Assembly: GCA_009760855.2 (NCBI GenBank)
Contig: WPIO01000165.1
Span: 197,501 to 261,500 of the forward strand
Direction: 5' to 3'
Source: Cristatella mucedo
Taxonomy: Eukaryota > Bryozoa > Phylactolaemata > Cristatellidae
DNA length: 64,000 nt
Of the stretch, positions 7,297-64,000 are shown piece by piece. The first letter of the stretch is position 1. Every line of letters begins with the position of its first letter. The position numbers and the translations under genes are program-made. The notes beneath the pieces are model-generated. The model was not told the origin of the DNA. It saw nothing but the letters and a program-made list of their open reading frames with translations, and made no database searches.

Positions 7297-7905
7297 GCGA
7301 GCGACAGGCGCGGCGCCGACGTTGTGCAGCGAGCTCACGCTTCGCGGCTTCGCTCTAACCCAAGATGTCTCCCGGCAAGCCCGGTCACCGGAAACGAGGC
7401 GACGCTCGGGAGACAGACACTCTTCGATCGCATCGTCGCAGGTTTTTCGAACGACTTTGGCCGCACAGCGGCGGCGTTCGGCCTGGCGCCACAGCAGCAG
7501 CCGTACCGTCCGTTCGCGGTGCCGACCGCGACGTCACTGCTGCTGCCGCCGCATCTGGCCTTGCCGGCGTCACCGTGCGATCCGGAGGCGGTGGCGGCAG
7601 CCGCTGCCGCCGTGCAGTCGCAGCTGGCCATGGCGCTATCTCAGTCGTCCGCCTCCGCCACGAACTTCGCCAACAGGTCCTACGCCGCCACGTCGTCGGC
7701 GTTGCCGCCGAAGGGGTCGCAGTCCGACACAGCGCTGACCTGGACGGGCCCAGGCCAGTCGCTGGCTGACACACAGGCCCTTGCCCGCTACCACACGGCC
7801 GCCGCAGCAGCCGCCACGCAGTTCGACCCGCGACGGTCGGCGTCGGCGGTGAGCTCGGCGACGGGATCGGAAGCGTGGCATTCGCCCTCGGCAGTTTACT
7901 ATTAG
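7297..7905 (+). CDS. Terminal coding exon of an unidentified Ala/Ser-rich protein (partial)
   Basis: A frame stays open from just after a TAG at 7294 to a TAG stop at 7903-7905. There is no convincing ATG at its start, and several AG acceptors lie between 7293 and 7441, so I read it as a last exon. The product is about 190-200 residues of low complexity: FSNDFGRTAAAFGLAP, QQQPYRPFAVP, long Ala runs, and the terminus SEAWHSPSAVYY. Such tails are common in transcription factors and RNA-binding proteins, but no domain identifies it. A polyadenylation signal follows at 8304. I do not assign a function. The main doubt is that GC-rich DNA yields long frames by chance; the stop-plus-AATAAA arrangement supports a real 3' end. 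Confidence 0.45.
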   Translation, partial: ASDRRGADVVQRAHASRLRSNPRCLPASPVTGNEATLGRQTLFDRIVAGFSNDFGRTAAAFGLAPQQQPYRPFAVPTATSLLLPPHLALPASPCDPEAVAAAAAAVQSQLAMALSQSSASATNFANRSYAATSSALPPKGSQSDTALTWTGPGQSLADTQALARYHTAAAAAATQFDPRRSASAVSSATGSEAWHSPSAVYY

Positions 7906-7970
7906 AGGACGCGAGCTCCTAGCCGGAAGCTAACCGGCAGGGCGACGATGACCGGAAGCGAGCTGTAGCC

Positions 7971-7972
<2 letters not shown>

Positions 7973-8061
<89 letters not shown>
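7973..8061. repeat. (CT)44 microsatellite
   Basis: Uninterrupted CT dinucleotides about 70 bases after the stop codon of the 7.9-kb exon, therefore probably within its 3' UTR. Opposite-strand Arg/Glu frames through it are artefacts. Confidence 0.95.
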
Positions 8062-8062
<1 letters not shown>

Positions 8063-8303
8063 AGACGACTCGCGAGCCGCTTGTGTAATGCTGCCGCGAA
8101 TGAGCCAGCCGTTGTCTACCGAGCGAGCGAGCGAGCGAAGAGGAGGACGAGCGTGCAACGGAGAGATCCGGACGGCGATAGCGGCGAAGCAGTCCGAAGA
8201 CGACGCTCGTCCTGACCATCTCGAGAGGCTGGCGTTTTTGGAGCTGGAGGGATGCAGAATGGACGGCGGAATTTCTAGCCGAGCCGCTGCTAATGCCGAT
8301 GCA

Positions 8304-8454: not shown

Positions 8455-8940
8455 GGTAATGTAATGTATCTCCGTCAGTAACTCCACAAAGTCATAAAGA
8501 CCATGTGGGTGTTACGCAGGAGAGTTTTGTATAGCGCACTCACAGCCTAAGCGGCTTTCGGTACGCATTCGGTAGCCAACAGACTTCGTCTCACGCAACA
8601 AAGAGAAAGTGGGAAGCATAGCAGAGTTAGGAGAGCAGTTGAGGTAGTGAGTAGCATAGAAGTATCAGTTCAGGACCGCTGAAAAAGATGTGCCATAGTC
8701 GGCAGTTGGAGAGTAGATGTCGTTGCATAAGAATTGTGGAAGCGAGTTCCACAGTCTAGGACCTGCAGAGCTAAAACTTCTGTCGCCAACTGTTTTTAAG
8801 CGGAGGAATGGGACAGCTAATTTATTGTCCACACAGGACCTGAGGGCGCGAACAGGCTGAAACTGATGCAGTAGTTCAGCTAGGTACGAAGGAGCCCAGC
8901 CGTGGCGGGCCTTGTGGGTCTCACAAGTTGACGTTAGCGA
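8455..8940 (-). mobile_element. LINE family B, 3' part of ORF2 plus 3' UTR
   Basis: The minus strand encodes a second type of LINE ORF2 C-terminus: motifs HGWAPSYLAELLHQFQPVR, LKTVGDRSFSSAGPRLWNSL, and a terminus near FSAVLN followed by a stop. The 3' UTR contains agccgcttaggct, then cgctatacaaaa, and ends near gtaatg repeats. Family B is clearly distinct from family A in both protein and tail. Other copies are at 13630, 33277, 54010 and 63325. Confidence 0.8.
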
Positions 8941-11977: not shown

Positions 11978-21004
<9,027 letters not shown>

Positions 21005-28824: not shown

Positions 28825-36404
<7,580 letters not shown>

Positions 36405-37744: not shown

Positions 37745-37925
37745 GGTGAGCCGCAATGGCACACTAGGTAAGGCGGTTGCTTTCACGACCTCGGTCCCGA
37801 GGTCGTGGGTTCGATTCCTGTGGTGGGCGATCCTTTATCGCCACTGCAAGCGGTGGTGATAGCCAGCCGTAAAGGCTCTTCTGTCGCTATACAAAAAGAG
37901 GCTGTTTAAGCAGCTAGGTTTAATG
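37745..37925 (+). mobile_element. SINE-D, best-preserved copy
   Basis: The tRNA-like head (gcacactaggtaaggcggtt; B box gggttcgattcct) contains an 11-bp palindrome stem (cacgacctcgg/ccgaggtcgtg). The body is tttatcgccactgcaagcgg, and the tail has agccgtaaaggct, then cgctatacaaaa and gaggctgtttaagcagct. The head cannot form an acceptor stem, so it is not a working tRNA gene. Confidence 0.8.
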
Positions 37926-46700: not shown

Positions 46701-49700
46701 CTCTTGCTGGCGCGTGAGGAAGTCGGCCTCCTCCGTCTTGGGCGTGAGAAGGGCAGCGTTGTACCACGAGCGACGCTTGAGCTTCCAGTACTGGTAGACA
46801 AAGTCGACCAGTTCCTCGACGGTGCCTCCGCAGCAGATGCCGCCGCCGTCCAGATCGAGGCCGCCGCTGTCCGGGTCGCGGCGCAGCTTCGAGGCCACGT
46901 CGGCCGGCTTGACGTACGTGTAGAAGCTGTTGCTAAGCTCGGCAATCCTGCAAAACCGGCCGCCGCTGAGCGAGCGAGCGACCGCACCATCAGATCAGGG
47001 GCGTGCCGTGGCGGCTGTGCGCGGACTCGGCGCACCACGCTTCAGCAGAGCAGGCCGTAGCCCCAACCCCCATGGGGCACACCTCTGCTTCTCCACACCC
47101 TATCCCCTACCCCACCTGGTGAAGGCACTCTGATCCGGCCTCGCCTCGGCGAGAGGGCTTTCCACGCTTCTCTGCTCAGCAATCGGCTGCATTCAGCGAG
47201 GCCGGAAGTAGGTCGAGAGGGGAAGCGTTCGTGACTGAAGCAATGCCACGACCCGAAAGGTAACACGCACAACATGAGTGCAGGCGTAAATACAAAGTGC
47301 TTTCTATGAGAGCCCTGCCACCCCAAGGATATATGTAATGCCTCCTGATCTTGACCCTGTGCATGTCACCCCTAACCATGTTATTCATTTTGTTTGTTCA
47401 TCAAGCATGATATTACTCACCATTCAATTGCATTTCCCTTTGCAGCAAATGTAAAGCGCCTAGAAAGAGATTGAGTTCTCTGAGGGCGCTTTATCAAGTG
47501 CATTATTATGATTATTATCCTTACCCATGAACATCCGTAAGGATATCCGTAATGCAGCCGCCACGCGTCGAGGGTTTCTGTTGAAGAGGACATCGTACCC
47601 GATGCATCGTTTGCCAAACGGCGTGCTCGCTTGTATAGCAAGGAAGGGCCGAGGCGTATTTACATGCCACTGGCAAGAGAGAGACTGCTGACATGTGGTC
47701 ACGCTGAAGTCGCTGGGCGACACCGAGTCAATAGGCTAATGCCTGTACACACATAACTATCTGATCGATACGACTGGAGCCATTGTTGTACTGCACGAGC
47801 AGGTTATGGCACCGTGCGTAGGGGGGGGGGGAACCGAGAGGAACACCGAGGTAAGCGAGCGAGAGCGCATGACACTTCGCTGGGCGCCGACTGAAGGGCT
47901 GCACACCCTCTCTGCCATTTAGCATTTTAAAAGGAGTACCCACATACTCTCACACAGACCAGAAGTATGCTCGCAGACTTGAGGTTGCAGTCTCGCTAGA
48001 TGTGAGTTAATTCATGCTGGAAAGCTAGCATGCACGCATTCCTATTTGCTTTTCCGAATGGACACCAATTCGCATGATCACAGAGCTGATCGCTTACCAC
48101 CCAATAGCAGCGCCAACAACTGAGCTCTTGCTGCCAAACATGCCGATGCTGCTCACGCTGCGCCGGAATTTCTTCGGAACTGCACGCTGCATGTCTACTC
48201 CTGACCACGGGTGTAGGCACTCGTGGCACAGCGGAGGCATGCAACAGCAGCAGCACACACTTCCGGCCACGCATGTCACCTCGAACCACGTTATGCTTGC
48301 TGTCATTGAGCATGCTAGCACTAACCATTCGACAATGCTTCCTTTGCAGCATATGTAAAGTGTCTAGAAAGAGATTAACTTCTCTGGGGCACTATATAAA
48401 TGTGTTGTTAGTATTATTATCTACCGAGCTTTGCCTCGGTCGGGTGACTCCAGCCCCATCGCCTCTGCTCCTTCACAGCCTCGGACACGGTCGGCTCAGC
48501 CCAGCATATGGGCCGAGGCCAAGCTGCATGCTGGCAACGCCATCCTGGTGATGCAGTTACATCACTTGGCACTTAGATCGGCTGGCTGCAACCAAGTCGA
48601 ACTCGCACCTACCGATGCATCATCTGGGCGTGGGACAGGGTGGGAGTGTATGGGCAGGCAAGAGGCGGGGTAGGGGCGGGCAAGGATATGGATAGAGGGG
48701 GTGGGGTGGGGGTGGGCAAGCATTCATTTCACCATCGCCGGTTCCGTCTCCTCCTCCCGAAGCCACTGCCCAGCTGCCCGCCCGGCCAAGGCGGATCAGG
48801 CATCGAGTGTCGTCGAGCGGCTGCCGACCGCTTCGCTGCCGAAGCCGCGCTCGGTAGCCATCTTCGTCTTACTTTTGCGAGCGGGCACCGGCTCTCTCGG
48901 CATCCGTCATGTCCTTCTTGTTCGGTGAAGACGTCGGATCTCGAGTGGACCTCGTCGAAGTCATCTTGATAGGCGTGGCGACCTCGCCATCTGCGGCGCC
49001 GCTGGCTCTGTGCTCCTCCGTGTGCTTCTGACAGTATGCCTGCAGCAGCAGCAGTGAGTGCGCTGCAGTGCTGCTCTCTGCCTCTCTGTCACCAACGCGC
49101 ACGAGCGATGGCAGAAGCAGGAAGTCTGGCCCGCAGCAAAGAGCAGCAGCAGCAGAGGGCGAGGCAGTGCAGGAAGTCGAACTCTGGTGGTGGGGTGGAG
49201 GAGGAATGAGCAAGCAAGCACCTAGAGGTCGGCAGGCAACAGAGCACGACGCAGGGAGCGGGGCTGAGCTCACCTTGAGCTTCACGTCGCCTCCGACGCT
49301 CGACTCGTCGACGACCGTCTTCATCTCCAGCTTGTGCTCGAACGCGCAGGTCACGTGGAAGGCGGTCTTGCACGCGCGCAGGTCGCACTGGATGCAGGCG
49401 CCCGTCTTCTCGCGGCAGAGCGAGCAGACGAGACTCCAGCGGCTGGGCTGCAGCACACGGCGAGTGCGGTGAGGCAGCGCGCGGGCGCGACTGCTGGGAA
49501 AAGAGGTGGAGATGTCGGAGCCTCGGCAGCGGGCGCATCGAGGAAGGCCGCTCCGCGCCGAGCCACACTAGGAAAGGGTAGCACGGCCCAAGCCGCCAGA
49601 GACACATCGGCCAAAAAAAAATAGTAAAATAAATTTAAAAAAAATATCGGCCAAAGATATCCAAAGTATCAGCAACAGAGCAACGCCAAGAGGGGGGCCG

Positions 49701-51368
49701 CTTCGCTGCTAACAGTGCAACCACGAAGCGGCACGAAGTCGAAAAGGCCAAAGGTCACGAAGGCCAAAGCCTCAAATGCCTCCGAGTGGTCTCAGTCCTC
49801 ACCGGTCGCCAGTTGCCGCTCTGCTTGCTGCGGCAGCAGCACGCCTCGGAGGCGGAGGAGGCTTGCTGTGGACGAACTCGAGGCTTGCACGCGCAGCGGC
49901 GGCGCCTGGGGGCAGGGCAGCCCGAGGGGGGGGGGGGGGGGCAAAATCCACGGCCGCAGCCGAAGGCGCTGCCCTGCCGTGCCAGCTGAGACCAGCGCTC
50001 GTGGCAACGGCGGCAGCACGTGCTCACCGGAATGTGCGAGATCTTGGTGACCGGCTCCATCTTCTCGGCGTCGCCGATGCTCACTTCCGGAATCCACAGC
50101 GCGCAGCTGACGTGCGCCCACGTTCTGCCACTCCTGTGAGCGAAGTGCACGGCCGCGCACGTCAGGCGCCGAGTTGGAGAGCTGCTTCTATTCCGGCTAG
50201 TAGCCAGTGAGCCGCAGTGGGACAGAAAGGCCAGACCTTTGATGACGATGCTTCGGGACTTTCAATCCTATCGATCGTACCCACCCATCGCCAGGCACCC
50301 GATAGGTGGTGGAGAGTGGGAGTGGCACACCACAGCACGCTAGGCAAGCGGCAAAGGTGGAGGAGTTGGGAAGGAAGGGGCGAAGGGAGAAGCCGTGATA
50401 AGATGCTCGCTCTTTGCGGCCGAGGGTTCGAATCCTGCAGCGGGCCGATCCTTTATTGCCAACGGCAAGCGGTGGCGATAGCCGTTAAGGCTCTTCTGCT
50501 GCTATACAAATGACGCTTTTGAATCAGCTAATACCTCATTGGTCATAGGGAGGTCACGGGGTGGCACACGGTCTTACTTGGTCGCCTTCATGGCTCCGCC
50601 CATCTTGGGACAGAGGACGCACTGTGGCTTGATGCCGAGGGCACACGTGCGGCACAGCCAGGCGCCGTCCGGGATCTTGTGCACGCCGTAGCAGGCTTGG
50701 TGCACGCACACGTCGCAGCCGTCGCAGAACACCATCTCGTTGTTCTCCTCGCTGTCGGGCTGAAAGTGGTGGCAAGAACTGACGCGGTCAAAGGCGGCTG
50801 CGCGAGAAAAAAAACTCGATTCGCACGAAAAGCAGTGCGAAAATTACAAGCAAAAAAATATCGCGATCGCTGCAAAATATCATGATCGCCGACCCTGGGA
50901 GCTTGCCGGGGGGGGGGTGGAGGCAGAGAGAGCGCCGGGCCTCCTTCTATGGCGTCGGAGCCGCTCACTCACCGAGCGGCAGACGTCGCAGACAACGTTC
51001 TCATCGTACTCGATGCCGAGGCCGTCCGAGTTGCGTATTGTCTCCTCCATGTTGTCGTGGCACAGCGACTCCAGCTCCTCCATCACTTTCTCCATGATGT
51101 ATTCGGGCACCGGCTCCTGGCCTACAAGGAGGCCATCCATCATTCGTCATCTAGGCGCTTGAGTCGCTAGTGAGCAGCTCGCGTACGCAGTGTCTCCCGA
51201 GGCGACGCGGGCGCAGGAGGGCGGTCGAATTCGCCTCTGCCCCCATGCACAAGCTTTACAGCAGCAGCCCCTCCCCCCCCGGCTAACAGCTAGTAGCAGC
51301 CAGGGGCTGCGGCAAAGACGCCGATGCAGCACCTGCAGGCAAAGAGTCGTAGGAGAAGAGCGCAGCCA

Positions 51369-63324: not shown

Positions 63325-64000
63325 TCTGATGTATTTCCGTCTGTAAGTCTACAAAGCTACAGATACTAGGTGGTCGTTACGAGTTTTCTATAGCGTATCC
63401 GAAGCAAAAGCCACCAAAAGGTTTTCGATCGCCGTACGATATCCAACAGAATACATCTCACTCAACGAAGAGATAAAGTGAGAAGCAGTCTAATTACTAT
63501 AATTATTAACTTAATCATTACTAATTAATATGAATAACAATTGTTAATAAGTATTACTGGTAGTTAATAATTATTTTTTTATTATTTATAATATAATAAT
63601 TAATTATTTGCATAACATAGAAGCATAGTTGATAATAATAATAATAATAATAAGACTAATTGCTCTTTTTCACAAGTACCATCAGCTTAAGGCATCATTG
63701 ATGTATCTCCGTCAGTAACTCCGAAAAGTCATAAAGACTATGTGGGTGTTATGCAGGAGAGTTTTGTATAGCGCACTCACAGCCTAGGCGGCTTTCGGTA
63801 CGCATTCGGCAGCCAACACACTTCGTCTTACCCAACAAAGAGAAGGTGGGCAGCATTTCTGAGTCTGGAAGACAGTCGAGGGGGCGAGCAGCATGGAAGA
63901 AGCAACTCAGTGTGGCTGGAGAAGTCGTGCCACAGTCGGTAGCACAAGAGAGTAGACGTCGTTGTGCAAGAATTATGGAAGTGAGCTCCACAGTCTAGGA
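63325..64000 (-). mobile_element. LINE family B copies, running off the window
   Basis: An older copy at about 63325-63490 (gtatttccgtctgtaagtct, tatagcgtatccgaag) is followed by AT-rich DNA (63485-63660). A clearer copy starts at about 63700 (gtatctccgtcagtaactcc, tatgtgggtgttatgcagga, tatagcgcactcacagccta) and is still open at 64000. Confidence 0.75.

Follow-up and report, generated by a model that had tools for sequence, protein, structure and literature searches.

A spaced motif common to a tRNA-headed SINE and a LINE of Cristatella mucedo is internal to both tails and only partly supports a partnership between them

The window, a stretch of 64,000 nucleotides from the bryozoan Cristatella mucedo (contig WPIO01000165.1, positions 197,501 to 261,500), carries copies of two LINE families, LINE-A and LINE-B, and of two tRNA-headed SINE families, SINE-D and SINE-E. 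The SINE-D copy at 37745..37925 (plus strand) was delimited from the sequence, by BLAST of a hand-made consensus (37750-37924) and with 65 family rows, and it consists of a tRNA-like head, a structured body, the motif described below and a terminal hairpin, with little terminal repeat in this copy. Within the tRNA-derived head, we read TAGGTAAGGCGG at 37765..37776 and GGTTCGATTCC at 37808..37818 (both plus strand), which we take to be an A-box-like sequence and a B-box. The body hairpin HPA (ATCGCCACT/GGTGGTGAT, 37837..37860, plus strand) appeared in the consensus fold, and each of its pairs is retained in 56-61 of 63-65 copies. The terminal hairpin HPC (GGCTG/CAGCT, 37900..37915, plus strand), read from the sequence, was not seen in LINE-B, and 3/64 SINE-D copies carry a double change from G-C to T-A at one of its pairs. 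Just 5' of the motif, at 37861-37868, the copy at 37745 carries one AGCC more than other copies and reads GATAGCCAGCCG where they read GATAGCCG.

The SINE-D family has a layout of about 180 nt, with A- and B-box-like sequences, the body hairpin, the motif, the terminal hairpin GGCTG/CAGCT and ATTT-like repeats, and its end pattern is CGCTATACAAA, GAGGCTGTT.AATC. Being short, present in many dispersed copies and equipped with sequences that read as A and B boxes, SINE-D is a tRNA-derived SINE. ARAGORN found no tRNA in the window and, on the consensuses, returned only low-threshold folds that were mutually inconsistent. A comparison of flanks for target-site duplications in 31 copies gave a mean longest shared word of 5.5, versus 5.0 for swapped flanks, among which the largest mean was 5.7. 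Another SINE-D copy of the window (50418..50530, plus strand; located by motif match, BLAST and profile search) has TGCTATACAAATG replacing CGCTATACAAAA. The copy at G000:C44:184600-184790 (L089) has the head and the terminal hairpin but neither body nor motif, and it either underwent a deletion after insertion or was mobilised without the motif. Copies were also seen directly 3' of a LINE-B end (L011, about 7879-8092, and L016, about 7949-8086) and directly 3' of a LINE-A-like end (L025, about 1464-1620), those of L016 and L025 being 5'-shortened; template jumps and insertions into tail repeats are both possible origins of this adjoining arrangement. Two SINE-D pairs, L042/L043 and L054/L055, each on one contig and with identical flanks, are apparently local duplications.

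LINE-B is an RT-bearing non-LTR LINE with 5'-truncated copies. An ORF fragment (of L012) matches RVT_1 with an E value of 2.1e-29, and 35 copies have one common 3' end, from which their homology extends over 155 to 1,976 nt. The better-preserved copies end in ACATT units, as does the copy at 8455-8940, whose 3' end was placed at 8463..8599 (minus strand) from the sequence and by BLAST. Three more LINE-B 3' ends were located on the minus strand by BLAST and motif scoring, at 13644..13780 (motif 20/22), 33272..33406 (22/22) and 63701..63836 (22/22), and the same methods placed a further, degenerate end at 63329-63466 (16/22). From their RT motifs and tail form, LINE-A and LINE-B are putative members of the L2 clade. 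Over 112 kb, made up of the window and 20 further stretches taken at set positions, there were 34 matches to LINE-A, 10 to LINE-B, 11 to SINE-D and 7 to SINE-E, fragments included.

The motif AGCCG-N3-AGGCT-N7-CGCTATACAAAA has exact matches at 37865..37896 (plus strand) in SINE-D, where it reads AGCC-GTAAA-GGCT followed by CGCTATACAAAA, and at 8525..8556 (minus strand) in LINE-B. Thus, the earlier note was exactly right that the SINE-D copy at 37745 and the LINE-B copy at 8455-8940 carry an identical motif with identical spacing, and that all 22 fixed positions (22/22) agree while the intervening bases differ; between the stem letters, SINE-D has GTAAA and LINE-B has GCTTA. In LINE-B, the motif was placed by match and frame reading, and the family consensus frame is open through it, reading ...ESRLGCECAIQNSPA*; its stop codon comes 10 bases downstream of CAAAA. 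Variants common to at least 4 of 39 LINE-B copies showed no third-position excess (11, 5 and 8 of 76 sites at positions 1, 2 and 3), so no coding constraint is shown for the motif region, and the overlap of motif and frame may be an accident.

The motif is genuine and exceeds what chance would give. With up to three mismatches allowed, the window holds 10 matches, 6 of SINE-D and 4 of LINE-B by their letters, versus a mean of 0.00 in dinucleotide shuffles. A search of the genome (572 Mb, 688 contigs) returned 11,797 exact matches (5,913 + 5,884), and the control read backwards returned 0. Between hand-made consensuses of SINE-D and LINE-B, the best ungapped 32-nt window matched at 23/32 positions, which is beyond chance because 0/400 shuffles reached it (shuffle maximum, 21). 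Gapped alignment of the tails likewise exceeded shuffled 3' ends, the comparison that had been proposed as a check, with 2 and 8 of 3000 shuffles scoring as high. A SINE-D profile search of 303 kb gave 49 matches at E values up to 0.05, and 43 were retained after 6 that were LINE-B, antisense, overlapping or repeated had been left out. The exact 22/22 motif was present in 7/43 of these, and at least 20 positions matched in 16/43 overall and in 15/17 of the best-scoring matches; these stretches had for the most part been picked for LINE-B or by fixed position, and the 22/22 share may be over-counted because a few of them also held a listed exact SINE-D match. Among LINE-B copies of the window and 20 fixed stretches, 4/10 had the exact motif.

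Where the match stops does not agree with the proposal that the motif forms the 3' tail end. In the consensuses used, about 34 nt (SINE-D) and about 72 nt (LINE-B) still follow the block, which makes it internal and not the 3' terminus, and the two families diverge after CAAAA. Downstream of that point, SINE-D continues with (A)GAGGCTGTTWAATCAGCTAGKATTT and LINE-B with CTCTCCTGCGTAACACCCACATGG... as far as (ACATT)n, and the terminal repeats are (ATTT)n-like in SINE-D versus (ACATT)n in LINE-B. When the part downstream of CAAAA was compared alone, 4,321/5,000 shuffles scored as high as SINE-D versus LINE-B, and upstream of AGCCG alone the figure was 4,969/5,000. Under strict gap costs, the two tails align only over the 12 contiguous bases CGCTATACAAAA; under looser gap costs, the whole-tail alignment extends about 30 nt upstream of the motif. 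Thus, SINE-D and LINE-B do not have a common 3' end that runs through the terminal repeat, nor do they have a common stem-loop with the same loop (GTAAA versus GCTTA), and the best folds of their isolated motifs differ.

An ordinary pair is present in the same window. SINE-E, its second tRNA-headed SINE (copy at 19412..19547, minus strand, with a tRNA-like head and a LINE-A tail), and LINE-A (3' end at 47396..47513, plus strand), both located by sequence comparison and BLAST, are a LINE/SINE pair with a common 3'-end sequence. By hand-made consensuses, LINE-A ends in ...AAAGCGCCTAGAAAGAGATTGAGTTCTCTGAGGGCGCTTTATCAAGTGCATTATTATT and its subgroup A2 in GGGCGCTATACAAATGTATTATT. The SINE-E tail matches LINE-A2 at 52/60 positions (z 20) and LINE-A1 at 44/60 (z 16.4), likewise with consensuses typed by hand, and the common stretch of about 60 nt runs almost to the terminal repeats. 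The tail plan of the mammalian MIR/L2 elements, AAAGCGC..AGCGCT plus (ATT)n, may resemble that of LINE-A and SINE-E. The longest contiguous part of the motif, CGCTATACAAA, also occurs in LINE-A2 and SINE-E copies, and this core is therefore found in copies of four families, SINE-D, LINE-B, LINE-A and SINE-E. The stem block AGCCG-N3-AGGCT is absent from the A2 and SINE-E consensuses, which match 13/22 fixed positions.

The comparison of SINE-D with each of the other tails depended on how they were aligned. In ungapped windows, LINE-B gave the best match (23/32 and 35/60, the latter also reached by 0/400 shuffles), followed by SINE-E (21/32 and 31/60) and LINE-A2 (20/32 and 30/60). Gapped tail alignments were scored as z values versus 3000 shuffles. 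LINE-A2 with LINE-B gave z 6.1 (0/3000 shuffles as high), and SINE-E with LINE-B gave z 3.5. Older SINE-D copies scored z 4.6 with SINE-E (3/3000 as high) and z 3.7 with LINE-B (8/3000), and younger copies scored z 4.4 with LINE-B (2/3000) and z 3.3 with SINE-E (31/3000). Direct comparison with LINE-A2 gave z 2.1 for old and 0.9 for young SINE-D, and there was no signal with LINE-A1 (z -0.8 and -1.2, respectively); because these direct scores are weak, the link of SINE-D to the LINE-A group rests on SINE-E. The gapped z values of SINE-D with LINE-B and with SINE-E are alike, and most of the compared tails look like members of one group, judging by these alignments, in which SINE-D does not single out LINE-B. 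The idea that the motif marks one particular LINE was thus not borne out, since CGCTATACAAA is also present in LINE-A2 and SINE-E and SINE-D scores alike with SINE-E and LINE-B.

Old and young SINE-D copies differ slightly in their motif. The majority consensus of 15 old copies is AGCCGTTAAGGCTCTTCTGCCGCTATATAAATGAGGCTG, which matches 20/22 fixed positions; this consensus is partly circular because the group comprises 15 of the 23 matches in its score range, 8 having been removed by name (five with the young motif and three odd ones). At the last motif position, this hand-picked older group has T in 11/15 and A in 2/15 copies, so that AAATG is mostly found, not AAAAG. The second differing position is a near tie in old copies (T in 8 versus C in 7 of 15) and C in young ones. 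The fit of the motif to LINE-B is therefore 20 or 21 of 22 in the old consensus and 22 in the young, which is suggestive only of a trend over time toward the LINE-B motif. Convergence of SINE-D on LINE-B was also considered as a candidate and rejected as not significant, with one firm gain, one uncertain gain and one interior match lost (GTTAA to GTAAA).

The suggestion that AGCC/GGCT can pair as a small stem held for both families, but the LINE-B motif, when folded in isolation, does best without that stem. The predicted fold of the isolated SINE-D motif has AGCC/GGCT within a longer stem. For the isolated LINE-B motif, AGCCGCTTA pairs with TGAGTG-c-GCT in the best predicted fold (-9.2), where a single C stays unpaired, and the fold with AGCC/GGCT scores worse (-6.8); the AGCC/GGCT pairing returns when a longer stretch of the LINE-B tail is folded. 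The stem is nearly invariant: it shows a single double change across 65 SINE-D rows and none across 41 rows of LINE-B. Because many of these rows were seeded by the exact motif, covariation hardly tests it. A search of the window with Rfam gave nothing at the gathering threshold and 38 sub-threshold matches, none on the two motif places. Sub-threshold miRNA-like matches at 33121-33292, 549-638 and elsewhere are probably simple repeats and were not taken as real.

A search for a LINE with the SINE-D end covered the same 303 kb. Among 27 SINE-D-type ends, 25 follow a SINE body, 1 a degenerate-looking SINE and 1 an unclear sequence, and at none of the 27 was a LINE recognised upstream. The exact end pattern without the preceding A-run had one match in the genome, a SINE-D copy whose middle, motif included, is missing, and not a LINE. 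When the SINE-D and LINE-B letters were excluded at four upstream places, the motif had 385 genome matches; among the matches listed (100 of 385), 98 read as LINE-B variants by 35 letters and 2 as SINE-D, which is weak evidence because the filter passes only about 1/3 of unknown families. A literature search for the tail strings found no SINE or LINE paper with them.

The reading of the motif that we prefer is a shared L2-type tail core plus an extra stem block that SINE-D and LINE-B alone have among the four families compared. SINE-D RNA would be made by RNA polymerase III, and its 3' part would hold an L2-type recognition module including CGCTATA(C/T)AAA. The presence of the same core in LINE-B, LINE-A and SINE-E would be explained most simply if all these L2-type tails had a common origin. 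SINE-D RNA may be bound through this module by the ORF2 protein of an L2-type LINE, and its copying into the genome would then start at the short repeats of its end. From the tail sequences, mobilisation of SINE-D by an L2-type LINE seems most likely. We consider it a little better than an even bet that SINE-D is a tRNA-headed SINE with an L2-type tail whose enzyme comes from LINE-B, from a relative of LINE-A or from a rare or extinct LINE.

LINE-B itself as the partner is only partly supported. What stood of the proposed partnership is an RT-bearing LINE, a match above shuffles and the best ungapped fit; what did not is that LINE-B is singled out, and neither the end nor the terminal repeat is common. 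If LINE-B were the true partner, its enzyme would read an internal module ending in CGCTATACAAAA and tolerate a different terminal hairpin and repeat. The ungapped windows that no shuffle reached, above those of SINE-E and LINE-A2, argue for this, as do the 22 fixed positions held in common versus 13 for LINE-A2 or SINE-E, the rise in fit from 20 or 21 in the old consensus to 22 in the young and the occurrence of 10 LINE-B and 11 SINE-D matches in the same 112 kb. However, the ends and terminal repeats differ, and the downstream part is no better than shuffles. In ZfL2, the loop sets specificity (PMC4176376), yet here the interior bases differ, and UnaL2 and UnaSINE1 have a common tail of which UnaL2 requires both stem-loop and terminal repeat (PMC5135761). 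Two features of ordinary pairs, the same end and the same loop, are thus missing, and we consider it unlikely that LINE-B is the true partner. A fuller version, in which LINE-B reads the internal module in the last codons of its own frame and SINE-D exploits it with another hairpin and repeat, having evolved toward LINE-B, strikes us as improbable.

One branch of the preferred reading, that SINE-D has or had a dedicated LINE partner carrying the complete SINE-D end, now very rare, extinct or absent from the assembly, is rather doubtful, if slightly less so than LINE-B as partner. It agrees with the common end of ordinary SINE/LINE pairs in PMC3747384 and PMC2653535 and with the presence of such a pair, LINE-A/SINE-E, in this genome, but against it are the 27 tails of the 303 kb without a recognised LINE, the single genome match of the exact tail pattern without the A-run, which is not a LINE, and the 98 LINE-B and 2 SINE-D assignments among the matches listed (100 of 385). 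A short, low-information motif picked after the fact could also agree by coincidence or by convergence. In favour of this, only CGCTATACAAAA aligns under strict gap costs, a LINE-A-type tail scores as well (24 and 25; 10 and 19 of 5000 shuffles as high), the consensus of old SINE-D copies agrees at fewer of the fixed positions and the predicted folds of the two motifs disagree. With 0/400 ungapped and 2 and 8 of 3000 gapped shuffles as high for SINE-D/LINE-B, and with a core that recurs in four families, we give this explanation little credence. An L2-type tail core, whichever LINE donates the enzyme, remains our preferred reading.

The preferred reading can be set beside known systems. The ordinary LINE/SINE pairs described in PMC3747384, PMC2653535 and PMC5135761 have their 3' end in common, and in several of them the terminal repeat is the same too. 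In zebrafish ZfL2, exchanging the stem-loop abolishes mobility, and specificity is determined by the loop (PMC4176376). UnaL2 and UnaSINE1 of the eel, an L2-type LINE and its SINE, have a similar 3' tail, a stem-loop followed by (TGTAA)n, and UnaL2 needs both parts (PMC5135761). As in the eel, a SINE with a tRNA-like head and a LINE with RT, having structure in the 3' region, occur here in one genome, and the unpaired C in the best-fold stem of the isolated LINE-B motif is reminiscent of the unpaired cytidine in UnaL2 (PMC5135761); unlike the eel elements, SINE-D and LINE-B share neither the interior stem bases nor the end. The carp HAmo SINE and HAmoL2 have an almost identical 3' tail, and most copies of the SINE carry TAAATG repeats (PMC2653535). 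They too combine a LINE2-type LINE (putatively so for LINE-B) with a tRNA SINE, whereas SINE-D and LINE-B have only a spaced internal motif in common. Like LINE-A and SINE-E, SINE-D and LINE-B lie in the same window, with the core CGCTATACAAA (in A2 and SINE-E) and a tRNA-like SINE head, but the tails of LINE-A and SINE-E agree over about 60 nt and nearly as far as the end (52/60, z 20). These comparisons caution that a spaced motif found in a SINE and a LINE can largely represent a core common to the whole group instead of marking the two as partners, and a complete pair from the same genome provides a yardstick for judging partial tail matches. If LINE-B does mobilise SINE-D through the internal core alone, an L2-type enzyme would tolerate a different 3' end, a tolerance not predicted from the UnaL2 and ZfL2 results.
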